From the NCBI GenBank assembly GCA_036388415.1, contig DASVRW010000002.1, positions 851,396 to 915,395 of the forward strand: a DNA stretch of 64,000 bases, read 5' to 3'. Under the pieces are notes generated by a model. It did no database searches, was not told the origin of the DNA, and saw only the letters and a program-made list of their open reading frames with translations. Position numbers and translations under genes: made by a program. Positions 39,963 through 54,248 of this stretch are shown one piece after another. The stretch's first letter is position 1. Each line of letters starts with the position of its first letter. This DNA is from Candidatus Saccharimonadales bacterium. GTDB lineage: Bacteria; Patescibacteriota; Saccharimonadia; Saccharimonadales; UBA4665.

Positions 39963-41003
<1,041 letters not shown>

Positions 41004-41032
41004 ACCTACGGGGGCGGAGTAACGGTATACGT

Positions 41033-41584
41033 ATGACGGACACACTAACAGTACACGAGACAGCAATTCCCGGATTTTATACAGTCAATTTAGCCGTCCA
41101 CGGTGATAATCGTGGTTGGTTCAAGGAGAATTATCAGAAAGAAAAAATGGAAGCCTTAGGCCTTCCCTCATTTGACATAGTACAAAATAATTTTTCATTC
41201 AATGCTGAACTGGGCGTAACGCGAGGACTACATGCTGAACCATGGGAAAAGTTCGTATCGGTCGCCAACGGCCGAGTATTTGGCGCTTGGGTAGACCTGC
41301 GCAAAGGTCCCAGCTTCGGGCAAACGCTCAGTCTCGAGATTACTCCTGATGTAGCCGTCTTTGTGCCCCGCGGCGTCGCAAATGGCTATCAGACACTTGA
41401 ACCAAATGTAACGTATACATATCTTGTTAACGCTCACTGGTCAGCCAATGCGCAGTACACATTCGTCAACCTATTCGACCTAGCGCTTGAGATTAACTGG
41501 CCGATAGCCCGAGAGACGGCGATTATTTCTGACAAGGATACTGCCCATCCGATGCTAAAAGATGTAATACCGATGGAGGTGTAG
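41033..41584 (+). CDS. rfbC: dTDP-4-dehydrorhamnose 3,5-epimerase-like cupin (variant)
   Basis: 183 aa RmlC-type cupin. GDNRGWFKENYQ (~20), VTRGLHAEPWEKFVSV (~60) keeping the catalytic His and Lys positions, VDLRKGPSFGQ (~84) and the YTYLVNAHWS segment (~125). Two usual family stretches differ. The GFAHGF-like loop reads GVANGY, and the RGLHYQ..P..Q spacing is shortened to RGLHAEPWEK. Placement between rfbB and rfbD supports the epimerase step, though the altered motifs leave room for a related epimerase activity. GGCGGAG upstream of ATG gives a ribosome binding site. Confidence 0.8.
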   Translation: MTDTLTVHETAIPGFYTVNLAVHGDNRGWFKENYQKEKMEALGLPSFDIVQNNFSFNAELGVTRGLHAEPWEKFVSVANGRVFGAWVDLRKGPSFGQTLSLEITPDVAVFVPRGVANGYQTLEPNVTYTYLVNAHWSANAQYTFVNLFDLALEINWPIARETAIISDKDTAHPMLKDVIPMEV

Positions 41585-41586
41585 CT

Positions 41587-42465
41587 GTGGCTGTTTTAGA
41601 TCCGGTAAAATTTGTAATTATTGGCGCCAAGGGCCAACTAGGCACAGCGCTCAAAAAGAAATATCCTCAAGCGACAGCCGTTGATTCCGATGAGCTCGAT
41701 ATAACTAATGCGGACGAAGTAGCACGGTATGACTGGTCGAATGTATCTGTAATCCTCAATGCTGCCGCCTACACCAATGTTGATGGCGCCGAGACCTTAG
41801 GGGGCCGTGCTATTGCCTGGCGCGTCAATGCAGTCGGTGTTGCGAACCTCACGAAAGCCGCCATGACACACAATCTTACTCTCGTTCATGTCTCTTCGGA
41901 GTATGTTTTTGACGGGACGGTATCTCCTCACGGCGAAGATGAACCGCTGACACCACTTGGTGTCTATGCGCAGAGCAAAGCAGCCGGCGATGTCGCTGCA
42001 TTACTACACGACAAAACCTACATACTTCGCACCAGTTGGGTGATTGGTGACGGCCAAAATTTTGTCCGCACCATGATCGGGCTTGCCGGCAGAGATATTT
42101 CTCCTACCGTCGTTGGCGACCAGATAGGCCGATTGACGTTTACGTCAACACTGGTTGATGCAGTAGCACACCTACTAACTACGTTGCCGGCAAGCGGCAT
42201 ATACAATATCAGCAACGACGGTGATCCAGCTTCATGGGCAGACATCACCCGAGCAATCTTTAGTGAGCTCGACAGGAGCGATCTAACGGTTACTGACACC
42301 ACGACAGACGACTACTTCAAGACTAAACCAGAAGCAGCACCACGCCCACTGCAGAGCGTTATGGACCTCAGCAAGATCAAGGCATCTGGACTTGATCTAC
42401 GCAGTTGGCGAGATGATTTATCTAAATATGTAAAATACGAGGTTGAAAAGGAGAAAATTTCATGA
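41587..42465 (+). CDS. rfbD: dTDP-4-dehydrorhamnose reductase
   Basis: 292 aa SDR starting at GTG, 2 nt after the rfbC-like stop, with GGAGGTGTAG as ribosome binding site. [14 protein letters not shown] (~11), [14 protein letters not shown] (~57), [10 protein letters not shown] (~100), the catalytic YAQSKAAGD (~126) and LRTSWVIG (~142) fit RmlD. It reduces the 4-keto sugar to dTDP-L-rhamnose with NAD(P)H. It overlaps rfbA by 4 nt (ATGA). Confidence 0.92.
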
Positions 42466-43319
42466 AAGGTATTATATTAGCCGGAGGTTCCGGTACGCGT
42501 CTCTACCCGATTACAAAAGGTATATCCAAGCAGATCATGCCGATTTACGACAAACCGATGATCTATTATCCGCTGAGCACCCTTATGCAAGCCGGCATAC
42601 GCGAAATACTCATCATTACAACACCGCAGGATCAAGCGCAGTTTCAGCGCCTCCTCGGCGACGGCTCTGAACTTGGCATATCGCTGCAATACGCTGCCCA
42701 ACCTAGCCCCGACGGCCTTGCCCAAGCCTTCATCATCGGTGAAGAGTTTATAGGCGGTGACAAGGTTGCCCTCATTCTTGGAGATAATATATTCTACGGC
42801 GAAGCATTCGGCGACAGCCTTCAGGCCTGCAATGACCCTGACGGCGGCATCGTCTTTGCATATGAAGTTTCCGACCCTGAGCGCTACGGAGTCGTCGAAT
42901 TTGATGCCGACCGCAATGCCGTCTCTATAGAAGAAAAACCATCTCAGCCGAAATCCAACTTTGCCGTCGTCGGCTTGTATTTCTACAACAATGACGTTGT
43001 TGAAATTGCCAAGAATATTAAGCCTAGCAACCGCGGCGAACTGGAAATTACCACCATTAACGAAGAATATTTAAAGCGTGCCAAGCTCAGCGTCCAAACT
43101 ATGGACCGCGGCTCGGCCTGGCTCGATACCGGTACTTTCGAAAGTATGAACGACGCCAGTGAATATATTCGCGTCATTGAGAAACGAACTGGTATTAAAA
43201 TTGGGTGTATTGAGGAAATTGCGTACCGACAAGGGTTTATTACTAGAGAACAGTTGCACACAATTGCTGAGCCGCTCAAAAAGTCTGGGTATGGAGTATA
43301 CCTGCTCTCATTGGTGTGA
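42462..43319 (+). CDS. rfbA: Glucose-1-phosphate thymidylyltransferase
   Basis: 285 aa. [22 protein letters not shown] at the N-terminus, [26 protein letters not shown] (~107), [30 protein letters not shown] (~157) and the [10 protein letters not shown] loop (~220) are RmlA signatures. It makes dTDP-glucose from dTTP and glucose-1-phosphate and is usually feedback-inhibited by dTDP-rhamnose. Last gene of the rhamnose operon; GAAAAGGAG precedes the ATG. The genes beyond this point are more AT-rich. Confidence 0.95.
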
Positions 43320-43328
43320 TAACAAGGT

Positions 43329-44330
43329 CTACTCGGACCAAAAATCTGAGTTTGAAATCACGTTGAGCACATTCGTATTGTCAGCAGCACTGATGCCGAG
43401 CGTCGCGTTGGGATCTAAACTTAAAGTAGCCCGTCCATCAACGCTTAACATTCGAAATGTTAAGCGGACCACTTCACTATCTCCATTTTGAGGAGACGCA
43501 CTTGGAGTTCCCCTTGCTATCCTGATCAGTCCTGGGGTTCTCGTGTCAGTAGCAGCGATCTGAGAAAACAATGAAGTATTCTGTACGCTCACATATTGTA
43601 CTTTAGTCGGATCAAATTGGATTGAAGCTTGCGCAGTATTTATTTTATCGACAGTATTTGTACGGACTGAAACAGTAAATATGTCATTTGCCTTAATACT
43701 GGCCAGTCTTGGAGAAACATACAGCGAGTTAGCAGCAGGCGCTCCAACTGAATCCGGCACGTAATAAGCTATCCCTTCGTATCGATAGGTATTCAGCTGG
43801 GCGGCTAGAATTTCTTTCTCGCTGGCTGTCGTTGTATAGAAATGTATACCCTGGTTCAGGTTATACAGTCTGTAAACTGCAGTTAAACCGTCCCCACTAT
43901 TAGGCATGCCGTAATAGGCTATTCCCTCATTCCGGTAAGCGTTGGTTTGGGCGGCAACCGAATTATACTCATTAAAATTGACTGTGTAGAAATGATAACC
44001 TCTGACTTTATCGTATAGCCGATAAATAGGTGAACTTCCTGCCACTTGAGCCGTATGCGCATAATATGCAGTTCCTTCATATGAATATCCGGAATTAGTA
44101 CTGATAACGGTATTGCGTTCTGGCTTTGAGGAAGTGAAAAAGTGCCCTCCGGCAAGCCTATAAAATCTATAGATTGGAGTAACGCTCGTATTAGTCACTA
44201 CGCTCGGTATTGCTGCGGCATGGCTTTGAGAAAGTATATTTATTCCTACGGTAGCGAACCCAAGCGGTACTATTAGGAGCAGTAGACTCTTGACATTCAG
44301 GAACTTGAAACGCGATATAGTATAGTTCAT
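43329..44330 (-). CDS. Exported protein with three DUF5648-type repeats and a cohesin-like domain
   Basis: 333 aa from ATG 44330. A signal peptide (~1-37), then three repeats of about 45 residues around YRFYRLAGGHFFTSS ... YEGTAYY, YRLYDKVRGYHFYTV ... NEGIAYY and YRLYNLNQGIHFYTT ... YEGIAYY. A C-terminal beta-sandwich (~195-333) resembles cohesin domains: FTVSVRTNTVDKINTAQASI, then FDPTKVQYVSV. It is probably a surface adhesin or glycan-binding protein; no dockerin is seen nearby. The start is set by TATAGT ending 6 nt before this ATG; an ATG two codons upstream abuts the hexamer. It is convergent with rfbA. Confidence 0.8.
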   Translation of the reverse strand: MNYTISRFKFLNVKSLLLLIVPLGFATVGINILSQSHAAAIPSVVTNTSVTPIYRFYRLAGGHFFTSSKPERNTVISTNSGYSYEGTAYYAHTAQVAGSSPIYRLYDKVRGYHFYTVNFNEYNSVAAQTNAYRNEGIAYYGMPNSGDGLTAVYRLYNLNQGIHFYTTTASEKEILAAQLNTYRYEGIAYYVPDSVGAPAANSLYVSPRLASIKANDIFTVSVRTNTVDKINTAQASIQFDPTKVQYVSVQNTSLFSQIAATDTRTPGLIRIARGTPSASPQNGDSEVVRLTFRMLSVDGRATLSLDPNATLGISAADNTNVLNVISNSDFWSE

Positions 44331-44336
44331 GTTCAT

Positions 44337-44342
44337 ACTATA
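44337..44342 (-). promoter_or_regulatory. -10 element of the cohesin/DUF5648 gene (leaderless type)
   Basis: TATAGT on the minus strand, 6 nt before ATG 44330. Confidence 0.55.
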
Positions 44343-44406
44343 AGGCTTATGTTAAATTATTAAAAATATCTTACTGGTTTGCTATGCAGATTAGATTGTG
44401 GTTAGT

Positions 44407-45750
44407 TTAAATAATCTTCTTTATCATTTTTTTCGAATGAGTCTTCACCGCGATAACTTTACCTTTGATTTTGTAAGTAAAGCGGTTATGGGTAAGGCGA
44501 TGTATATTTTTGTATTTGATATTTAATTGATGGTTGTGCTGGAATAATGCCAGAGTGGGATCAAAAATATTGTCATTACGATATTCCGCACGGTGTTGTT
44601 GGAGGTATGCAACCGCGTCAAGAAGGACTTCATACCTATCGGAACTGAAGAATTTATCGAGCTGGATTTGTTTCGCCGCTGTTGCCATAGCTATTGATTC
44701 CTCAGCGTGTGATATTATCCAATCGAGCGTACTAGCGAGACTTTCGTGATCGCCTGAAGTGTAGACAAATCCCGTTCGCCTATCCTCAACTAATTCCAAA
44801 CCACCGCCCGTATTATTAGTAACGACAATCCGTCCAAAAAGTTGACCTTCAATTATTGTACGACCGAACGGCTCGTAGGTGGCTGTGCTTAAGATAGCAT
44901 TGTATTCGTTCATCCGTACATATGCCTCTGAAGTGAATCCTTTGATCTTAACTTGATCACTTATACCATTATCGCGGATATACTTCCTAAGCTGCTTTGT
45001 ATAGCGAGCATCCGCTTCTGTATCACCGTACAAATCTAAAGTAATGAATTTTTTACCTTGATCGCTTAGTATCTTAATAGCCTGTACTGCCTCTAGTTGA
45101 TTTTTTCGGGGCGAAAGTGCTCCGAAGATTGCAATCGAAATATTTTTTTTAATTTCATTCTTTTTATATAACTGACGTATTTTCTCTGCATCGAGCGGAG
45201 GTAACGGATATAATATCTTTTCTGCTAATTTAGGTGAAGCAAAGCTGCTGTCGAATTCATTTTTAACGAACAGCGAGTTGAATATGATGTAATCAGAATT
45301 ATCATTGAGGATTTGACCATATCGTTTATAGTCGGGCACCATTCGTAATGATGGATCTTTTTCATTTAAAATTTCATGCACGAGAACTATATTCGGGATG
45401 CCGAATGCCCTTCCAGCATACATACCCCATGGTATGACCGTAGTGTTGGAAATGATCACATCTGGCTTATATTTTTCTACTTCTTGAAATATTCTTACTA
45501 AAGAATTTCCAGTACTCGCTAGTATGCGATGCGGGTGAACTTTTCTATGAGGTTTAGTGGCCCATCCATATCCAACTACGATACTAGGAATGTTCTTCTT
45601 GGCTAGATTTTCTGTCATCGGACCTTTATAAGGAACCATTACCGTACATTTATATCCATTGCGGATTAAGACATCGACGTATTCAAGTAAGCATTGTTCT
45701 GCTCCGCCAGTTACCGCGCCAGTATGTGACAAAAATAGGATTTTTTTCAT
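44407..45750 (-). CDS. GT4-family glycosyltransferase
   Basis: 447 aa. GT-B fold: FLSHTGAVTGGAEQCLLEYVDVL (~5-27), DVIISNTTVIPWGMYAGR (~95), IFGALSPRKNQLEAVQAI (~208) and STATYEPFGRTIIEGQLFG (~290; E-x7-E donor motif), then a Lys/His-rich C-terminal tail that could bind the membrane. Probably adds a sugar to the lipid-linked glycan. It overlaps the upstream RgpF-GT2 gene by 4 nt. It is notably AT-rich, with AAA, ATT and AAT favoured, unlike genes left of 43 kb. Confidence 0.88.
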   Translation of the reverse strand: MKKILFLSHTGAVTGGAEQCLLEYVDVLIRNGYKCTVMVPYKGPMTENLAKKNIPSIVVGYGWATKPHRKVHPHRILASTGNSLVRIFQEVEKYKPDVIISNTTVIPWGMYAGRAFGIPNIVLVHEILNEKDPSLRMVPDYKRYGQILNDNSDYIIFNSLFVKNEFDSSFASPKLAEKILYPLPPLDAEKIRQLYKKNEIKKNISIAIFGALSPRKNQLEAVQAIKILSDQGKKFITLDLYGDTEADARYTKQLRKYIRDNGISDQVKIKGFTSEAYVRMNEYNAILSTATYEPFGRTIIEGQLFGRIVVTNNTGGGLELVEDRRTGFVYTSGDHESLASTLDWIISHAEESIAMATAAKQIQLDKFFSSDRYEVLLDAVAYLQQHRAEYRNDNIFDPTLALFQHNHQLNIKYKNIHRLTHNRFTYKIKGKVIAVKTHSKKMIKKII

Positions 45751-47549
45751 TTAAAAGGCTCCTCGATTCCGTCCCAGTATTCTTGGACTAAATTTCGATA
45801 ATTTGGATATCTTTCGAGGAGGATTTTTTCATTGCGTTCAATCTGCGCATTTCGTACATCTTTACCGAAACTACGAGATTCATAATGGAAAACATATGAG
45901 TGGTTTGCAACCGCGCATTTCCATCCTTTACTTCTGAGTCTCATCGCAAAATCATTTTCTTCGCCGTACCCTTTGCCATAAATTTCATCAAACAAACCGT
46001 ATTTGTTTATCACTTCTCGTCGTATGAGTACGCAAAAACCATGAATGGTTGGCGTTATATATCTTTCAGGCAGTTTTCGTTTAATTAGACGGTAAAGCGT
46101 GTATGAAGCTGATTTATAATTTGCTAATCGACTTGTCATCGGAACGGACCAAATCGTTGCATTGTTACTACGGGAGGTGGTGGCAGCGATTTTGGGTTCT
46201 GAGTAGAGAGTCTTTCGCATTTCGATCAAAAAGTTCTTCGTGACTTTTGTGTCGCTATTTAGCAGTAATACGTCGTCTTTTTGATTAACCAATTTGAGGA
46301 CTGCTCGATTGCAAGTCTGTACGAATCCAAGATTTTGCGGATTCCGATGGTAATAGAAATTAGTCAGCCCCGTAATGCTATTCAAAATATCTTTTTCTAA
46401 TATATCAGCGTCTGGACCGCAATCATTAACATAGTGAACTGACACATCCTCCGAATTTCCCACTTCTTTTATTAATGATTTGATATTAATAGCCAAGGAT
46501 TGCCAATCAGCATATACCGGGACTATGATACTTATCTGTGGCCTGCCGCCTGATACATCCCCGAAATACCAATCAGGAAACGATGATCCACTATTTTCAA
46601 TTTTTACTATACCTCGTCTAGAAGAACCAATCATATCTTTCCTTTTTAGTTGCGGTAATATACAAAAAACTCTCTCTAGCGCATGTGCCGTCGTACGGTC
46701 AAATTGTCCTTGCTCTGATTGAAAATTTTTTGAAGAAATGTTCAGAACAGTACTGATACTTGACAAGTCTACCCAAAACATTGTCCCTCCAAAAAATCCT
46801 ATTGTGTCGATGTATTCAGAGGAAGAAGCACTGAAAAAACTAGAGTCGACTTCATTATAGAGTAACTCTTGAATAATTTCTCGGTTATGCCTCAGATACA
46901 TTTTGATTGGGTAAAAGTATTCTGACGGACCAATCATTCCCGTCTGATTGCTGTTCAGTTTCTTTAATATATTTTTTAATTTTGTTTTATCATCTGGAAT
47001 CAATGCTTCAAGCGTATTATTCAACCAAACATCACCACCTCCTGCTGAAGCTGTGTTACTGGTCTCGCGATGTACAGATTTCTTGGAATGAATTTTTAAA
47101 ACTTTTTTATAACCTAAAGTATCGAGTAATGAAGCTACTTTTATAAATGGCAGCACATCCCGACCTTTGTTTGGCACGATCAATATATTTGCGGCAGGAA
47201 AATCATGCCTTATGTCAGATACATACTTTTTATTGGATTGCGGCATTGTTATGTAAAGATCTGTAGACAAAGCGGCAGACAATGTAAGTAGCTTGGGCGA
47301 GAATACTTCACTCCAACTTTCGGGATGATATAAGTGCAATACAACTGCGTAATCTGATTTTTTCTCGAAGTTTCCATTTTTTTCTATGAAGTATCTTTCA
47401 TACCTGGCATTCTTGTTATTATATCGAAACAACTGATGGCGTAGTCGCTTCGGCAATTTAAAACCAGTTAAGCGGCTTTTGATTGATAAAGTTTTAGTAT
47501 ATAAACGTCTTACGAGAGATCGACTGGTGCGTTGCGTTATCATATTCAT
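45747..47549 (-). CDS. Rhamnan synthesis protein F-like domain fused to a GT2 rhamnosyl-type transferase
   Basis: 600 aa. Residues ~60-310 match the RgpF/DUF616 type: YAVVLHLYHPESWSEVF, IVPNKGRDVLPFIKVASLL, VLKIHSKKSVHR and FFGGTMFWVDLS. Residues ~335-590 form a GT2 domain: ISIIVPVYADWQSL, YVNDCGPD, NLGFVQTCN, LLLNSDTKVTKNFL and GKGYGEENDFAMRLRSKG. RgpF-type proteins build rhamnose-containing wall polysaccharides. This fits the dTDP-rhamnose operon next door. It forms an operon with the GT4 gene. TATAAT lies 13 nt before the ATG. Confidence 0.85.
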   Translation of the reverse strand: MNMITQRTSRSLVRRLYTKTLSIKSRLTGFKLPKRLRHQLFRYNNKNARYERYFIEKNGNFEKKSDYAVVLHLYHPESWSEVFSPKLLTLSAALSTDLYITMPQSNKKYVSDIRHDFPAANILIVPNKGRDVLPFIKVASLLDTLGYKKVLKIHSKKSVHRETSNTASAGGGDVWLNNTLEALIPDDKTKLKNILKKLNSNQTGMIGPSEYFYPIKMYLRHNREIIQELLYNEVDSSFFSASSSEYIDTIGFFGGTMFWVDLSSISTVLNISSKNFQSEQGQFDRTTAHALERVFCILPQLKRKDMIGSSRRGIVKIENSGSSFPDWYFGDVSGGRPQISIIVPVYADWQSLAINIKSLIKEVGNSEDVSVHYVNDCGPDADILEKDILNSITGLTNFYYHRNPQNLGFVQTCNRAVLKLVNQKDDVLLLNSDTKVTKNFLIEMRKTLYSEPKIAATTSRSNNATIWSVPMTSRLANYKSASYTLYRLIKRKLPERYITPTIHGFCVLIRREVINKYGLFDEIYGKGYGEENDFAMRLRSKGWKCAVANHSYVFHYESRSFGKDVRNAQIERNEKILLERYPNYRNLVQEYWDGIEEPFK

Positions 47550-47592
47550 ATTTTATCTATAGATTATACCCTATGCACGCCTTGTATGCTTT

Positions 47593-47601
47593 TGATATAA
47601 T
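47593..47601 (+). promoter_or_regulatory. Extended -10 element (leaderless type)
   Basis: TGATATAAT (TGn-TATAAT) ending 6 nt before ATG 47608; no Shine-Dalgarno site. Confidence 0.65.
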
Positions 47602-47607
47602 ATACTT

Positions 47608-48159
47608 ATGCATAATGTATCAAAAATCAAAATTAGTATGAAAAGAGTTGCTTTAAGCGCTGTCATATTCCTTATAGCAATCGGATTCGTTATAACGTTA
47701 TTAGAAAAAACAAATGTTACCCATCTATTTCATTCCGAGTCGTCAACCGCCGTTAAGCACGATCAAAAATTTCAAGCGGACAAAAAGGCTGCGACTATTG
47801 ATTCTGATGGTAATGCCGTCAGTTTAGATAGTAAAGGAAATCCAGTTAAAAATACTGGTAATTATACTCCGCCCAGCAACTCAGAAAATATCTCAATTTC
47901 TGCTAATCGGCAAGACGATGCGTTAGTAATCGGAACCAAGCTGGCTGGATATAGTGATGGCACATGCGACCTGGAACTGACGAGTGGCGCACTGACGATT
48001 AAACGCCAAGTGACGGTAGTGTATGCCCCCAATTATTCAACGTGCGCCGGTTTTTCAATACCAACAAGTGAGCTGCCACGCGGCGATTGGAAAATTATGA
48101 TTACAGTATTGTCAGGTGGCGTTACAACATCAAACTTCATAAATCATAGAATCTTATGA
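47608..48159 (+). CDS. Hypothetical membrane-anchored exported protein
   Basis: 183 aa. A basic start, one span (~12-32), a Lys/Asp/Ser linker with DSDGNAVSLDSKGNPV-type charged repeats, then a beta-sandwich-like domain (~90-183) with one cysteine pair (GTCDLEL and YSTCAGF) that may form a disulfide. Its stop overlaps the start of the 680-aa transglycosylase/DUF5648 gene (ATGA), so the two work from one message, perhaps as surface partners. Not recognised. Confidence 0.7.
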   Translation: MHNVSKIKISMKRVALSAVIFLIAIGFVITLLEKTNVTHLFHSESSTAVKHDQKFQADKKAATIDSDGNAVSLDSKGNPVKNTGNYTPPSNSENISISANRQDDALVIGTKLAGYSDGTCDLELTSGALTIKRQVTVVYAPNYSTCAGFSIPTSELPRGDWKIMITVLSGGVTTSNFINHRIL

Positions 48160-50198
48160 CCGCACTAAGCCGACTCACTAAGAAAATATTACTGATAGCA
48201 CTTTTATTGGTATCAACTGCTGCTATTTCTAATCCTACTTCAGCGAGCGCTATAGACACCTCCGAGTGGCAGGCCGGCAAGATTATAGATGATCACAACT
48301 TTTCGGACGCTGATAGTCTCTCAGTTGATCAGATACAAGCGTTTTTGAATAATTTAGTACCTGATTGTGATACCTATGGTAACCAACCTGCTGCCAATTA
48401 TGGCCGTCCTGATTTGACGCGCGCTCAATATGCAACGCAGATAAAGGGATGGCCAGCGCCTCCTTATGTTTGTTTAAAAAACTATCACGAAGTTCCGAAG
48501 ACTAGTCCCGGACCAGGCGTACCTGACAACAGCTTCAATCACGGTGGTGGCGCATTCACAGGAGGTACTAGCGCTGCTCAGTTGATATACAATGCAGCAC
48601 AGCGATATCGTATCAGTCCTAAAGTACTTTTAGTTAAGATACGCGCCGAATCCGCGGGGCCGTTGACAAATGACAGCTGGCCTTTTGCTAGCCAATATAC
48701 TTATGCTATGGGAGCACATTGTCCTGATAGCGGTCCAAATAGATCAGCGAATTGTGATCCGAACTATGCCGGATTTTCAATACAAATTTCAGAAGCGGCC
48801 TCTTTAATGCGGTACTATTTAGATAATATGGGTCAGCCATGGTGGCCCTACAAAAAGCCCGGAGTAAATTCAATACAATACCATCCAGATCCAACGTGTG
48901 GATCAAGTGGTGTAAATATATCATCACAAGCCACCGCTGCACTATACACTTATACTCCATATCAGCCGAACGCCGAAACACTTGCAGCCGGATATGGTAC
49001 GGCGCCTTGTGGAGCGTATGGAAATAGAAATTTCTGGCTATACTACAGGGAATGGTTTGGTAGTACGACCTATTCTCCACCAGTATGTAATTCTCGAAGA
49101 TCTGGTGTTGCATGCGTTTGGCAGCTGAATAATGTCTTTAGCGACAGTAACTTCCTAACGATTAGCAATAGTGAGCGAGACACTGCAATTAGCAATAGTC
49201 TGTATATGTACAACGGTCAACCGTTTTATGGTTTTACCGCACAACAACCTGGTTTAATTCCGGTGTATAGATTTAAGCTGGCTAAAGAGCACTTTTATAC
49301 TACGAGCGAGTCAGAAAAAACATCCATATTGCAAAACTCGAGTAACTCGTACGAGGGTGTGGCATTTTACGCGTACCCAGGATCGTCGAATACAAACGCT
49401 ACTTATCCAATTTATCGATTATCTTCGACCAACGGTCACGTATTCGTAGCAGATGCCGGTAAAAAAGATGCCCTGATTAATTTAGGATATACGTACGAAG
49501 GTGTAGCATTCAATACGCCTAGTGCGCTAGGGAGCCAACCCACTCCATTGGCAAATCATTTCAATGTCTATCGGTTAAGCAAGGCCGGTCATCATATTTA
49601 CACACAGGATCTTTCCGAAAATGACACTCTTCTTCGCGCTGGCTGGGTCAATGAAGGAGTGCTATTAAATGCCCCTGTCAGTCAGACTACTACACCTGTG
49701 TTTAGAATTACTAACGGATCTGATCACGTGTATACAAGTTTGATTAATGAGAGGAATCAGCTACTATCGCTTGGTTGGAAATATGAAGGAATAGCATGGT
49801 ATGTTGATGCAACAACACCTCAAACATTTCGTTTCTATATAGATAATAAACACTTCTATACCGCAGATCCTAATGAATCGTTACTCCTTGCTTATAATTC
49901 GACACGATTTGAAAGCATATCTTTTGGCTACAAACAGCCGAATGATTATACCGTATATAGAATGTTTAAAAATTCCGCTCACTTCTTTACTGCCGATATT
50001 ACAGAGGCCATGAACGCTTCGAGTGCTGGATGGAAATATGAAGGAATAGCGTGGTACGCAAATCCTACAAGTACGCAATCGACCATTCCGGTGCATAGAT
50101 TGGTTATCGGACAAAGGCATTTCTACACTGTAAGTGATTCCGAGAAAGCTCAGCTCATGAGTGCTGGATGGAAATATGAAGGAATAGCGTGGTACTAA
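48156..50198 (+). CDS. Exported lysozyme-like domain plus seven DUF5648-type repeats
   Basis: 680 aa. Signal peptide (~8-31). Residues ~32-305 form a lytic-transglycosylase-like domain: IYNAAQRYRISPKVLLVKIRAESAG (the Glu is a candidate catalytic residue), FSIQISEAASLMRYYLDN, ATAALYTYTPYQPNAETLAAGYG and NRNFWLYYREWFGS. Several cysteines are present. Seven repeats of about 40 residues follow (~330-680), patterned YR....HFYT....E.......W.YEGIAWY; the last two are almost identical in DNA. It is likely a secreted wall hydrolase or adhesin bound through the repeats. Domain names are from memory; activity is inference. Confidence 0.8.
   Translation: MTALSRLTKKILLIALLLVSTAAISNPTSASAIDTSEWQAGKIIDDHNFSDADSLSVDQIQAFLNNLVPDCDTYGNQPAANYGRPDLTRAQYATQIKGWPAPPYVCLKNYHEVPKTSPGPGVPDNSFNHGGGAFTGGTSAAQLIYNAAQRYRISPKVLLVKIRAESAGPLTNDSWPFASQYTYAMGAHCPDSGPNRSANCDPNYAGFSIQISEAASLMRYYLDNMGQPWWPYKKPGVNSIQYHPDPTCGSSGVNISSQATAALYTYTPYQPNAETLAAGYGTAPCGAYGNRNFWLYYREWFGSTTYSPPVCNSRRSGVACVWQLNNVFSDSNFLTISNSERDTAISNSLYMYNGQPFYGFTAQQPGLIPVYRFKLAKEHFYTTSESEKTSILQNSSNSYEGVAFYAYPGSSNTNATYPIYRLSSTNGHVFVADAGKKDALINLGYTYEGVAFNTPSALGSQPTPLANHFNVYRLSKAGHHIYTQDLSENDTLLRAGWVNEGVLLNAPVSQTTTPVFRITNGSDHVYTSLINERNQLLSLGWKYEGIAWYVDATTPQTFRFYIDNKHFYTADPNESLLLAYNSTRFESISFGYKQPNDYTVYRMFKNSAHFFTADITEAMNASSAGWKYEGIAWYANPTSTQSTIPVHRLVIGQRHFYTVSDSEKAQLMSAGWKYEGIAWY
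50021..50195 (+). repeat. 37-nt perfect direct repeat inside the DUF5648-repeat gene
   Basis: The same 37 bases occur at 50021-50057 and 50159-50195, encoding SAGWKYEGIAWY. A near copy lies around 49780-49807. It marks recent duplication or homogenisation of repeat units. Confidence 0.85.
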
Positions 50199-50218
50199 AC
50201 AGCGATCCGACTAGCTAG

Positions 50219-51169
50219 CTATTTATTCTTACGAGTTATAGCATGTTTAATTCTATGTATGCGCGTAACTGATTTCCAAGCTTTTGAATTCTTTATGTCA
50301 TTCAATTCTGCTAATATTACTGCATTCATTGCTTGCTCAGACTTTAGTAAGTGCTGTGAATGTATCAAGTCTTTATGTAAACGATCCATCTCTTTAGACG
50401 CCCAGTCTTCTTTGCCTAAATGTATTAGGTCTTGCTCATGGAGTTGACGATCGCTATAATGCTCGCCTAGAGCTCCAACATACTCAACTTTTTCCACAAT
50501 TTTTCTATTACTACACACTAGGTAAAAATATAAATGTTGCTCGCGAGTTTTCGAAGTCAGGTTCAGCAACTTACAATTTACGTCACTATTGAGTTGCGTT
50601 TCACTTCCCACGGCTACATATTTCCATGTTGACTGGAAGTATGGCTCAATATTTTTATAATACTTCTTAAGGAGCGATGTCAGTTCGTTGTACTCAAATT
50701 CATGTAAATGAAAGTGATTACCTTCTGCAAACTCTACATCATTTGGCGTAGAAACTAACGCTACCCCATCAGGCTTAAGGACGCGCTGAACCTCGTCTAG
50801 AAACTTCTTATAATCCTTGATGTGCTCGATGGTTTCAAAAGTAATTACCACATCGACACTATTTTCCTCTAAGGGTATTGATTCGCCGTCACCTACCCGG
50901 TACTCGATATTTTTCGCGTCGTAATTTTCTTGAGAGTATTTAACCGCGTCCTCATTGACGTCCACCCCATATACAAATTTTGCAGATTCTGCTATCAATT
51001 TAGTCCCGTAGCCTGAACCACTAGCGATGTCTAAAACGACCTTGTTTTCGACGACTGGCTTGGCCGCTAGATATCGAGTCAGGTGCTCAGCGTATATTAA
51101 ATGACCCTTGTGGAACTCTGGTACCATTCGCTCATAATCGTTTTCCAACTTCGTCCGTTTTTTTGACAT
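50219..51169 (-). CDS. Class I SAM-dependent methyltransferase (Wzt-associated)
   Basis: 316 aa from ATG 51169. Motif I VVLDIASGSGYGTKLI (~48-63), VDVNEDAV, VDVVITFETIEHIKDYKKFL (~112-131) and RVLKPDGVALVSTPN. A C-terminal helical region (~245-316) resembles the coiled tails of glycan-capping enzymes. The start follows the Wzt stop by 1 nt and has AAAGG 7 nt upstream; the same frame open to 51295 lies inside wzt. Methyl capping of a chain end often sets chain length in Wzm/Wzt systems, so such a role is reasonable inference. Confidence 0.85.
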   Translation of the reverse strand: MSKKRTKLENDYERMVPEFHKGHLIYAEHLTRYLAAKPVVENKVVLDIASGSGYGTKLIAESAKFVYGVDVNEDAVKYSQENYDAKNIEYRVGDGESIPLEENSVDVVITFETIEHIKDYKKFLDEVQRVLKPDGVALVSTPNDVEFAEGNHFHLHEFEYNELTSLLKKYYKNIEPYFQSTWKYVAVGSETQLNSDVNCKLLNLTSKTREQHLYFYLVCSNRKIVEKVEYVGALGEHYSDRQLHEQDLIHLGKEDWASKEMDRLHKDLIHSQHLLKSEQAMNAVILAELNDIKNSKAWKSVTRIHRIKHAITRKNK

Positions 51170-51170
51170 G

Positions 51171-52346
51171 TCAGACCTTTGCAATATTAACTTTAATTTC
51201 TGGGTCAACAATTCCCGCGGTCTTAGTGTATTTTCTAACCTTGAATGTTGCTGCATTATTAACCCACTGATAAAAGTGTGTCGTTGATTGATCACAGCAA
51301 GCTACGCTTAGAGTGAATGTCCCGTCGGGAAGCATGTTTGGAATTTTCCAAGACAACTTTAGAGAATCACCTTGTTTGACCGAGATTGTCTTTAATTTTT
51401 CCTTGATCGTGTTTGCTTCTAGAACATTGACTCCTGCTTGGTTATACAGGACAAAACCGTAAACTGGTGGCGGGAGGTTTTTTGAAGCCGTGTAGGACGT
51501 AATCACTTCTATTGCGTCATCAGTAACTTTAACCGAGGTATTGTCCACGACCATACCGCCTTCGCCCCAAACATCACTTTCAACCTCGACTTCATCACTA
51601 GAGGCATCTATGAACAACTTTTGATATTCCTGCGCAACCTCTTCGGCAGTACCCGATTTAGCAATTTGACCTTTTTCGATCATTACAGCTCGGTCACAGT
51701 ATTGTCTAACCGCCCCCATGTCATGAGTTACGAGTATTACTGTTTGCTTTTTTTTCTTTAAAGACATGAAGTAGTCATAGCATTTTCTTTGAAAATCAGC
51801 ATCGCCTACAGCTAATACTTCGTCGAGAAGCAGGATGTCTGTCTGTGCCTTGATTGCAATTGCGAACGCGAGCCTAACCTGCATACCGCTACTGTAATTT
51901 TTGAGCTTTTGATCCATGAATTTTTCGATCTCTGCGAAAGCAACTATATCTTCATACATCGCATACATTTCTTTTCTACTGAATCCAAGTAGAGCACCGT
52001 TCAGAAACACGTTTTCGCGACCTGTTAGTTCAGGGTTAAAGCCGACGCCCAACTCAATGAACGGGGTTAATGAACCATTGATTTTCACACTCCCCTCTGT
52101 TGGCATATATATACTTGCCAGTATTTTGAGTAACGTACTTTTTCCTGAGCCATTTCGTCCAACTATGCCAAAAAATTCTCCCTTTTTGACTGTAAAAGAA
52201 ATGTCTTTAAGTACATGTTGTTGCTCAAAACTGCGTCGGCCACCTCGAAACCTATGTATTAAAGCACTTTTGACAGAAGTTTGTCGTTCATGGGGTAACT
52301 TAAAAGTCTTACTAAGGTGGTCGACATGTATTGCATAGTCTTTCAT
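51171..52346 (-). CDS. wzt: Polysaccharide ABC exporter ATPase with carbohydrate-binding C-terminal domain (Wzt-like)
   Basis: 391 aa. ATPase domain (1-~240): Walker A GIVGRNGSGKSTLLK (~60-74), signature YSSGMQVRLAFAI (~156), Walker B ILLLDEVLAVGDADFQ (~177), VTHDMGAVRQ. The C-terminal domain (~255-391) is a beta-sandwich with YGFVLYNQAGVNVLEAN and FTLSVACCDQ, the Wzt_C type that recognises the finished or capped glycan. Together with the Wzm-like permease it moves the undecaprenyl-linked glycan across the membrane. Joined to the permease gene by a TAATG overlap. Confidence 0.92.
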   Translation of the reverse strand: MKDYAIHVDHLSKTFKLPHERQTSVKSALIHRFRGGRRSFEQQHVLKDISFTVKKGEFFGIVGRNGSGKSTLLKILASIYMPTEGSVKINGSLTPFIELGVGFNPELTGRENVFLNGALLGFSRKEMYAMYEDIVAFAEIEKFMDQKLKNYSSGMQVRLAFAIAIKAQTDILLLDEVLAVGDADFQRKCYDYFMSLKKKKQTVILVTHDMGAVRQYCDRAVMIEKGQIAKSGTAEEVAQEYQKLFIDASSDEVEVESDVWGEGGMVVDNTSVKVTDDAIEVITSYTASKNLPPPVYGFVLYNQAGVNVLEANTIKEKLKTISVKQGDSLKLSWKIPNMLPDGTFTLSVACCDQSTTHFYQWVNNAATFKVRKYTKTAGIVDPEIKVNIAKV

Positions 52347-53155
52347 TAAATATTCTCCGCAAAACTTTTAGCTTGGCTTCTAAAATAGACTACACCGCCT
52401 ACCAATACTAGGATGACTATGGCAAATGGAATTAGTCCATACCAGCCGCCATCGAATATTCTATGGATGGTAATTGTTTCATGAGTAATTGAACTATATC
52501 GAATATCTTGTATGGCTTGTGTCATTGGGCTCATGAATATCAGCTTTTGTAAGTTCAAGTCTGTTATTTTAGACAATGGATAAATGATCGGGGTGAGATA
52601 GAAACCAGCCTGTAAAATCACTTCCCAGATATACCCAAGATCTCTAAATTTTACAAACGCAGCAGCGAAGAATAGTGATATGCCAAGTGCAAATAAGTAC
52701 ACTTCTACTAGAATAAGGGGTACAAATAGTAGTGTACGGTACACATCGACATGGTTAATCACCATGAATATACTTACGACAACTAGATTAAGTCCGAGAT
52801 TTATCAATGCTGAAATGCTGCTACTAAATACAATAATCCACCTAGGAATACTAATCTTACGTATTAGATCGCCACGTCCAACAATTGACCCCAAACTTTG
52901 CTGAGTCATCTCTGTGAAAAAATTCCATACTACTATACCCAAAAGTAGGTACACCGGATAGTGAGGGATGTCATCGCCCAATTTCAAAAAGCGAGCAAAA
53001 ACTATGTACAAAATGACAAATATTAGTAGTGGCCGTAACAATGACCAAGCATACCCCAATGCTGATCCTTGATAACGAAGCTTGAAATCAGTGCGCACTA
53101 ATTCAGCCAGTAGGGCACGGTTTTGTTTCGTGAATATTCTGCTTAGTCGGTTCAT
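52346..53155 (-). CDS. wzm: Polysaccharide ABC exporter permease (Wzm-like)
   Basis: 269 aa ABC-2 permease with about six spans (~35-55, 70-90, 110-135, 145-170, 180-200, 235-258). DFKLRYQGSALGYAWSLLRPLLIF (~20-43) is typical of Wzm/TagG/RfbA exporters, as are the later AGFYLTPIIYPLSKI residues. It starts the wzm-wzt-methyltransferase operon, divergent from the GT2 gene at 53184. TATAAT at 53166-53171 lies 12 nt before its ATG and overlaps a TATTAT for the opposite strand. Confidence 0.92.
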   Translation of the reverse strand: MNRLSRIFTKQNRALLAELVRTDFKLRYQGSALGYAWSLLRPLLIFVILYIVFARFLKLGDDIPHYPVYLLLGIVVWNFFTEMTQQSLGSIVGRGDLIRKISIPRWIIVFSSSISALINLGLNLVVVSIFMVINHVDVYRTLLFVPLILVEVYLFALGISLFFAAAFVKFRDLGYIWEVILQAGFYLTPIIYPLSKITDLNLQKLIFMSPMTQAIQDIRYSSITHETITIHRIFDGGWYGLIPFAIVILVLVGGVVYFRSQAKSFAENI

Positions 53156-53183
53156 CTGTTGTAAGGTATTATAAGGTAACGAT

Positions 53184-54248
53184 ATGAATAAGTCGATTCA
53201 ATCCCCTGTAGTCGTCATCCCAAATATCAATGGCGGTGACGGCCTGTTAAGAGCCGTTGACTCGTTAGTACTCCAAACTACACCGCTTCATATTATAATC
53301 GTGGACAATGCATCCACGGACGATTCGATTCAAAATCTTCTTAAAAAATTCCCGCTCATTGAAATCATCAAACATAGCAACAACAAAGGTTATGCAGGAG
53401 GAGTAAACCCAGGCTTTAAAAGAGCATTAGAATTAGGGGCATCCTATACTGCTCCGTTTAATAATGACGCCGTAGCCGACCCTCGTTGGTTGGAACGACT
53501 TGTTACATTTTTAGATTCCCATCAGGATTACGGCGCAGCGGCCAGCAAGGTGCAGGACATAAAAAAAAACAAGTTAGATAGTAGCGGAGAATTTTACTCT
53601 GTTTGGGGATTACCATATCCACGAGGTAGATCTAATTCGAATATATCAAGATATGATATGGATACCGAAATATTCGCCGCTAGTGGCGCTGCCAGTCTAT
53701 ATCGTACAAAAACCATAGCGGACGTAGGTCTGCTTGACGAAGATTTCTTCGCCTACTACGAAGACGTTGATTTGGGCTTTCGAATGCAGCTAATGGGCTG
53801 GAAAGTAGGCTATGTCCCACAATCGGTTGTCTATCATGCCACTGGCTCAACTAGCTCTAGAATTCACGGCTTCACTACGTTGCAAACCTTAAAAAACCAA
53901 CCTTTAGTTTTATGGAAGAATGTACCTACTAAGTATCTATGGTCGGTTAGTTGGAGATTTATAATTGCCCACAATCTTATTTTCCTTCGAGCTATTTTTA
54001 GTGGAAATATCAAAGCTGCTTGCACTGGCTATTTTAAGGCGGCATGGTTAATACTTCGGAAGACCAGTCAGCGTAAATCAATTCAAAAACGCAAACGAGT
54101 TTCCGATGACTACATATGGAGCATCATGACACATGACTTGCCTCCGAACGCGACCGCCCTACGCCGTCTACGATCTTTCTGGTGGAGACTTATTGGCCGA
54201 CAACACAACGATCAGGATGTAGGGACGAGCAAGGGTAGTGGCTTATGA
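53184..54248 (+). CDS. GT2-family glycosyltransferase (rhamnosyltransferase-like)
   Basis: 354 aa. PVVVIPNINGGDGLLRAVDSL at the start, VDNASTDDSI (~35), NKGYAGGVNPGFKRAL (~68), FNNDAVADPRWLE (~92), AASGAASLYR (~172) and EDFFAYYEDVDLGFRMQLMGWKVGYVP (~193-219) match WbbL/RfbF-type GT2 enzymes. One membrane-proximal hydrophobic stretch (~255-290) follows. Likely adds rhamnose or a similar sugar. AAGG lies 8 nt before ATG. It overlaps the following GT4 gene by 4 nt. Confidence 0.9.
   Translation: MNKSIQSPVVVIPNINGGDGLLRAVDSLVLQTTPLHIIIVDNASTDDSIQNLLKKFPLIEIIKHSNNKGYAGGVNPGFKRALELGASYTAPFNNDAVADPRWLERLVTFLDSHQDYGAAASKVQDIKKNKLDSSGEFYSVWGLPYPRGRSNSNISRYDMDTEIFAASGAASLYRTKTIADVGLLDEDFFAYYEDVDLGFRMQLMGWKVGYVPQSVVYHATGSTSSRIHGFTTLQTLKNQPLVLWKNVPTKYLWSVSWRFIIAHNLIFLRAIFSGNIKAACTGYFKAAWLILRKTSQRKSIQKRKRVSDDYIWSIMTHDLPPNATALRRLRSFWWRLIGRQHNDQDVGTSKGSGL

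Follow-up and report, generated by a model that had tools for sequence, protein, structure and literature searches.

A stretch of 64,000 nucleotides from a Candidatus Saccharimonadales bacterium (GenBank assembly GCA_036388415.1, contig DASVRW010000002.1, positions 851,396 to 915,395 of the forward strand; hereafter the window) carries two overlapping genes, B and C, within a surface-glycan locus. The core finding is that B and C belong to a widespread two-gene cassette. B joins a conserved N-terminal domain (the N-domain), which is probably hydrolytic, to a tail of DUF5648 repeats that homologues replace with unrelated modules, and C is a small membrane-anchored partner. The DUF5648 tail goes with the cell’s own rhamnose genes, so the simplest reading is that it docks on the cell’s own rhamnose-containing glycan. 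Taken whole, as an own-cell docking lysin and its partner forming a cassette of the glycan locus, this reading is advanced tentatively, at slightly less than an even chance.

According to the list of open reading frames and Pfam, B (48156..50198, + strand) is a modular lysin-like protein of 680 residues, secreted-looking by eye from its N-terminal hydrophobic stretch. Its catalytic-type N-domain spans residues 36–306 (48261..49073, +), with the codon of Glu165 at 48648–48650. The tail (49092..50195, +) was assigned from Pfam, motif counting and a structure model. B passes the gathering score of DUF5648 (PF18885; E 2.2e-97, 322.9 bits, cut-off 25), and motif counting gives the seven clear repeats that the initial annotation had described. 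The structure model adds, at middling confidence, a degenerate first unit at residues ~318–360. In that model (mean predicted local distance difference test score, pLDDT, 60.7), seven of the eight units follow a strand-strand-helix-strand order and the sixth shows a helix only. The (beta3-alpha)3 domain (DUF5648) of GH70 enzymes is likewise built from ~45-residue units, each of three strands and one helix (PMC11299179); that domain has three units, whereas B has seven to eight.

The occurrence of DUF5648 elsewhere suggests what the tail may do. According to PMC12853789, BSAP toxins carry DUF5648 as their C-terminal domain, and O-antigen is the target of three of them; glycan recognition by the domain is already proposed there. 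PMC13379245 reports one endolysin combining GH25 with DUF5648. Among ten DUF5648 proteins from elsewhere, hand-picked from 103 with lysins in mind, Pfam placed a GH25 domain in four and a glucosaminidase domain in three, with SSURE, CAP/Big and subtilase domains in the remaining ones. We infer that the repeats of B are glycan-binding modules mounted on a wall hydrolase. The initial annotation had proposed as much, with a locally made glycan as one candidate ligand; the BSAP domains, the lysin fusions and, as set out below, the glycan loci and the RmlC and RgpF distributions lend this proposal inferential support.

The tails of B homologues are exchanged wholesale. All-against-all comparison at 50 bits sorted the 42 homologues into 15 tail clusters, and the tails recognized by Pfam include N_BRCA1_IG (11 members), DUF5648 (6), B_lectin (4), LGFP (3), RicinB_lectin_2 (2), ChW (1) and DUF346 (1), among others. 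N-domain pairs up to 79% identical bear tails that give no BLAST hit; close pairs may keep a common tail, as L158 and L159 do (91%). The tail of the window is 51% identical to that of locus L106 over 375 residues, with N-domains 21% identical, and its N-domain is 67% identical to that of L145, with tails lacking similarity. A quick tree of 48 N-domain rows requires no fewer than six changes to account for the DUF5648 tail, four of them forced by starred branches. A conserved, hydrolase-type domain combined with unrelated C-terminal modules is the design of a modular lysin with an exchangeable binding domain, its hydrolase part being the putative element. The loci compared are the family’s DUF5648 loci plus 40 of the best N-domain matches, rather than a random draw of the 288 genomes with such a match. 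Parts of the L152 and L160 tails are masked, the set of 47 open reading frames counts one gene twice (L005 and L164 lie on the same contig), and A1 omits L161, L164, L170, L101, L103 and L108.

The second gene of the cassette, C (47608..48159, +; 183 residues), goes unmentioned in the initial annotation and shares its final 4 bases with the beginning of B. The open reading frame list and the partner alignment describe it as a one-helix membrane partner with a conserved G.C ... C ... G.W outer domain. The same arrangement recurs in the fetched loci, where a gene for a protein of 170–215 residues precedes the enzyme gene, overlapping it or lying a few bases away, and the product has a single membrane helix, a linker of low complexity and, on the outside, a small domain in which two cysteines are conserved. 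Partner profiles were built from one half of these proteins and applied to the rest. In 48 of 49 loci (among which L164 duplicates the training row L005) they matched beside the enzyme gene; they matched once elsewhere, and in none of 20 control regions hand-placed on contigs of the same genomes. At L102, the sole locus missed, the adjacent frame of 191 residues is nonetheless in the partner alignment. Across 39 loci, the outer domain of the partner varies in step with the N-domain, at a Mantel r of 0.35 (p 0.001), and not with the tail (Mantel r 0.05, p 0.10; partial correlation 0.003). Adjacency and N-domain tracking together give the pattern of a putative lysin-immunity pair, in which the partner gene follows the enzyme domain. 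The window’s C matched no Pfam family; partners in general match scattered families, the commonest being SpoIIIAH (6/44), and the PDB profile matches of C fall nearly all over its helix and linker.

The DUF5648 tail keeps company with RmlC, a protein of dTDP-rhamnose synthesis. Within the family, all 12 DUF5648 genomes encode RmlC, against 27 of 81 others (12/12 against 16/41 when near-complete genomes are compared). Across the whole order the figures are 27/33 against 119/359, where one of the 33 DUF5648 genomes (G101) and two of the 146 RmlC genomes lie below the family cut-off; outside the family they are 15/21 against 92/278. Counted by lysin locus, the genome encodes RmlC in 12/12 DUF5648-tailed cases and in 12/36 with other tails. 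A gene with an RgpF domain stands within 3 kb in 4 of 10 DUF5648 loci (the window included) and in 0 of 36 others; with the window, the source of the query, excluded, the counts are 3/9 against 0/36, and over whole regions they are 4/10 against 1/36. These RgpF counts omit L105, L107, L148 and L183, which are short, and the duplicate L005. Near full-length relatives of the window’s GT4 (50%) and RgpF (60%) proteins occur only in L164, a DUF5648 locus in a genome of another family. Rhamnose-rich wall polysaccharides are found in lactococci, enterococci and streptococci. As a statistical association between genes, the RmlC link favours the cell’s own rhamnose-containing glycan as the probable ligand of the tail.

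Residence among glycan genes is shared by most of these loci. At least three relatives of the window’s glycan genes were present in 31 of 34 full 20-kb lysin-gene regions and in 0 of 20 control regions; the count used 16 window glycan proteins as queries, left best matches to the ABC ATPase uncounted, and covered the 34 of 49 regions that measure at least 19 kb. Within the limits of hand-placed controls and non-random loci, a glycan neighbourhood is the rule and not an accident of this genome. The DUF5648 lysin loci longer than 15 kb in relatives (L101–L104, L106, L108, L110, L153 and L164) behave alike, eight of nine having at least three such relatives and L101 two, which leaves the initial annotation’s association of the repeats with glycan synthesis unrefuted.

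The glycan genes that had been reported beside A and B in the window were recovered. Between B and a third gene, A, lie C and two glycosyltransferase genes: a GT4-type enzyme (44407..45750, −) and a protein with an RgpF domain and a GT2 part (45747..47549, −), both assigned by Pfam and comparison. Downstream of B come a methyltransferase (50219..51295, −; Pfam), an ABC-2 exporter pair (51171..53155, −) formed by an ATPase with a Wzt_C domain (51171–52346) and a membrane subunit (52346–53155), and a GT2 glycosyltransferase (53184..54248, +; Pfam and GC content at third codon positions, GC3). The GC3 of genes in the block 43329–54248 is 0.34–0.41, against 0.47–0.61 in flanking genes; A stands at its left edge, B in its middle, and the last GT2 gene at its right edge. 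Outside it, at normal GC, are rmlB, rmlC, rmlD and rmlA (40005..43319, +), where RmlC was named by family match, RmlA as NTP_transferase, and RmlB and RmlD by eye. The sharp drop in GC3 beside the rml genes looks like an acquired block next to resident rhamnose genes. The initial description of A and B as bracketing an AT-rich cassette is only partly right because the block runs on to 54248: A does mark an edge, but B lies within.

Combining these elements, B and C would act as one part of the machinery of the surface-glycan locus. B would be exported, its cysteine-rich N-domain would cut peptidoglycan, and its exchangeable tail would dock on a polysaccharide. With a DUF5648 tail, that polysaccharide would be the rhamnose-containing product of the same locus, so that B would be retained on its own cell surface and there act either on the wall of its own cell or on one pressed against that surface. 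C, anchored in the membrane, may act on the catalytic domain as an inhibitor, an immunity protein or an assembly partner. What the sequences themselves show is the cassette, the exchange of tails, the setting among glycan genes and the statistical association with rhamnose genes; catalysis, ligand, own-cell docking and the role of C are the proposed elements.

The proposed enzyme activity depends on the N-domain, which is widespread. A profile found matches in 300 of the 392 genomes of the order and in 274 of 316 near-complete genomes, weak and partial matches included; a single-sequence query found them in 288 of 392, and a genome mostly has a single match. Of 192 genomes drawn from the phylum, 69 contain a match; 57 of these lie outside the order, where it mostly covers the core stretch alone. 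Elsewhere in the phylum, one lysin core domain (G546:C1:736337-736732(-)) forms part of a giant protein whose open frame spans 24404 residues. Among the 42 aligned homologues, two of which match unrelated Pfam families weakly, the invariant columns include one glutamate (Glu165) and six cysteines. A relative of the core domain is fused to NlpC/P60 (E 4.8e-10) on a viral contig, L185 (IMGVR_UViG_3300046837_000409). In Foldseek, 9 of the 12 rows for the N-domain model were LytB, AtlE, SagB or a glucosaminidase, at non-significant values (best E 1.5). The same model (pLDDT 44.1) aligned with LytB (4q2w) at Z 6.2 over 98 residues and 3.3 Å, and with AtlE at Z 5.0–5.3. LytB, AtlE and SagB we take to be members of GH73. 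Glu165 sits in a helix of this low-confidence model. A profile alignment pairs it with the glutamate that is invariant in the GH73 set, though the alignment is not significant and a GH25 control equals it. Judged from sequence and models together, the N-domain is quite probably a peptidoglycan hydrolase. Membership of GH73 is not claimed, because the likeness to GH73 enzymes is not significant; Pfam and PDB searches gave no sequence match to the family, and the resemblance is reported as such.

A phage origin, or a phage-borne endolysin, was considered and rejected: the loci lie among glycan genes, and viral contigs returned one partial relative. Scanning them with the window’s N-domain gave no relative and scanning with alignments gave that one, on a single contig, while phage and plasmid records gave no match to the N-domain of L169, the query used there in place of the window’s.

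Several results count against the proposed reading. As regards the enzyme, the window’s N-domain, which had been called transglycosylase-like, matches no Pfam family at E 0.1, and a PDB profile search with it gave nothing beyond chance matches, to a stretch of phosphatase with E values from 0.57 upwards. The structure models are poor (mean pLDDT 60.7 for full B and 44.1 for the N-domain alone); nothing reached E 0.001 in Foldseek with either of them, the full model giving chance matches only, and in profile comparison GH73 (E 0.14) did not outdo GH25 (E 0.11), an unrelated control. As regards the ligand, RmlC is missing from 6 of the 33 DUF5648 genomes, and the RmlC link, never reversed in independent tree pairs, falls short of significance there owing to their small number (four on starred branches, median p 0.25). 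A query with the whole RgpF protein matched 7/33 DUF5648 genomes and 1/17 others, no clear difference, some matches covering the GT2 part only and the 17 comparison genomes being our own choice from RmlC genomes. L106 and L153 have tails equally similar to the window’s, with other glycosyltransferases instead of the GT4 and RgpF pair. The DUF5648 label is clustered on the N-domain tree: shuffled labels gave a mean of 10.8 changes, and a value as low arose in 1 of 500 shuffles. Shared descent therefore contributes to every count, and the tail is inherited as well as exchanged. The tracking of the N-domain by C could be plain co-inheritance, and LGFP-like tails may equally bind a host envelope.

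A host glycan as the ligand is a strong rival. B would then be a host-directed lysin, its tail binding the wall glycan of the host and its hydrolase serving to attach, open or feed, with C protecting the producer and tail swaps setting host range. Tail variety of this kind recalls phage endolysins, the homologues include LGFP, B_lectin, RicinB and ChW tails, and C tracks the catalytic domain. Cultivated patescibacteria grow as epibionts, according to PMC10633639 and PMC12102498, and the former describes essential envelope proteins with glycan-related domains, one of them with a dockerin, that are suggested to target host glycans. Residence among the cell’s own glycan genes and the link of DUF5648 with its own RmlC are not predicted by host targeting, unless host and epibiont share the glycan, and the epibiont lifestyle of this genome is itself presumed. 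The link with the cell’s own rhamnose genes points, if anything, to its own glycan, and we hold a host-directed lysin to be possible, if somewhat unlikely.

Two further accounts were considered. B might be a housekeeping wall enzyme that opens the cell’s own peptidoglycan for attachment or passage of polysaccharide, with the tail merely scaffolding it at the export site; the wide distribution of the N-domain in the order (300/392, mostly one match per genome) and the position of B among exporter and glycosyltransferase genes would suit such a role. It would not need wholesale replacement of the tail by several known lectin-type domains, and its probability is put low. Lower still stands the view that A and B are plain adhesins and that the N-domain binds without catalysis. 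The absence of the N-domain from recognized enzyme families, the cohesin in A and the adhesin-like repeats speak for it; the invariant glutamate, placed in a helix of the low-confidence model, the N-domain relative fused to NlpC/P60, and the presence of DUF5648 on wall hydrolases in 7 of the 10 hand-picked proteins speak against it. Own-cell docking by a lysin with an exchangeable tail stays the preferred reading, at the strength given at the outset.

A (43329..44336, −; open reading frame list and Pfam) encodes 335 residues and looks exported, its N-terminus showing by eye a hydrophobic, signal-like stretch. The initial annotation of three repeats and a cohesin-like domain holds for it. The repeat region, residues ~44–200 (43737..44207, −), counts three units by motif, and A passes the gathering score of DUF5648 (E 4.9e-35, 121.1 bits, cut-off 25); residues 214–327 (43356..43697, −) form a cohesin domain in Pfam, also above its gathering score (PF00963; E 4e-11, 43.7 bits, cut-off 24.1). 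A search of the 1.14 Mb genome found DUF5648 in no proteins other than A and B. The combination of repeats and cohesin was absent from 12 other DUF5648 proteins of the family’s genomes and from 2 of another family, a contig-edge fragment in G026 and one protein in G003 being excluded. In same-family genomes, DUF5648 was also seen on a reprolysin-like metalloprotease (L113:8974-10638) and on a metallophosphoesterase-like protein (L111:30-1613).

The search for dockerin modules elsewhere in the genome, suggested along with the initial annotation, was positive at the domain level: four dockerins exceed the cut-off, the best at E 4.1e-9 across model positions 1–56/57, and of 14 control genomes, 2 likewise have a Dockerin_1 match above the cut-off. 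Cohesins above the cut-off number eight with that of A counted, one of them (contig C1) being unlisted when protein L200:953-2701 was scanned singly. The same genome encodes a protein of 1000 residues with three cohesins, fn3 and a dockerin, and another with CBM_4_9 and a dockerin whose N-terminal part resembles a sugar hydrolase by eye; the cohesin and dockerin regions are G000:C2:1003000-1022900 (L198), G000:C2:793000-804000 (L199), G000:C1:1-9000 (L200) and L197. The cohesin of A could suit the four dockerin proteins. The idea of A and B as one machine was rejected: B has neither cohesin nor dockerin in Pfam, so the cohesin of A has no visible partner in B, and the two are therefore kept as separate parts. 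A is best read as a second, separate user of the docking repeats, a surface protein whose repeats would hold a cohesin that could recruit dockerin-bearing proteins.

Parts of this system have familiar counterparts. Modular phage endolysins and bacterial autolysins, an established kind of protein, likewise join a hydrolase-type domain to a glycan-binding module, and lysins of lactococci, enterococci and streptococci bear the same DUF5648 module, there on GH25 or glucosaminidase domains. B differs in its other, unnamed N-domain and in being chromosomal, widespread in the order, placed among glycan genes and accompanied by a membrane partner. Glycan recognition by DUF5648, too, is already on record as an inference, in PMC12853789, where the module is the receptor-binding domain of Bacteroidales group 1 BSAPs, with O-antigen as the target of three. 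BSAPs are pore-forming toxins against other strains, whereas B carries a hydrolase-type domain and its proposed ligand is deduced from genomic context. The SagB-SpdC complex (PDB 6u0o), which pairs a membrane glucosaminidase with a membrane partner, resembles the cassette as a wall hydrolase complex of this kind; SagB is a weak fold match to the N-domain model (Z 5.2, 91 aligned, 3.2 Å), below the level of kinship, and C differs from the partner there in having one helix and a small outer domain. Cohesin-dockerin scaffolds find a possible parallel in the cohesin of A and, with that one counted, in the eight cohesin and four dockerin matches of the genome; B has neither module. Among the PubMed Central matches listed for DUF5648, Saccharibacteria and Patescibacteria, a scope that leaves subscription journals and preprints aside, no description was found of a cassette that lies among glycan genes and unites a conserved domain of hydrolase type and an exchangeable tail with a membrane partner.

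For the question of how these tiny bacteria recognize and handle walls, those of others or their own, a widespread two-gene cassette offers a small set of testable genes. It also yields a concrete guess, a rhamnose-containing polysaccharide, for the ligand of DUF5648, a Pfam domain of unknown function present on lysins, GH70 enzymes and BSAP toxins. On a broader and more speculative view, which we consider conceivable and on balance improbable, the cassette would be an order-wide polymorphic lysin system in which a fixed catalytic domain keeps its own membrane-anchored inhibitor and the tail is swapped along with surface-sugar genes; tail, glycan and host range would then change in concert. 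If that view is true, the tail type of a genome would predict the glycan on its surface or its host.

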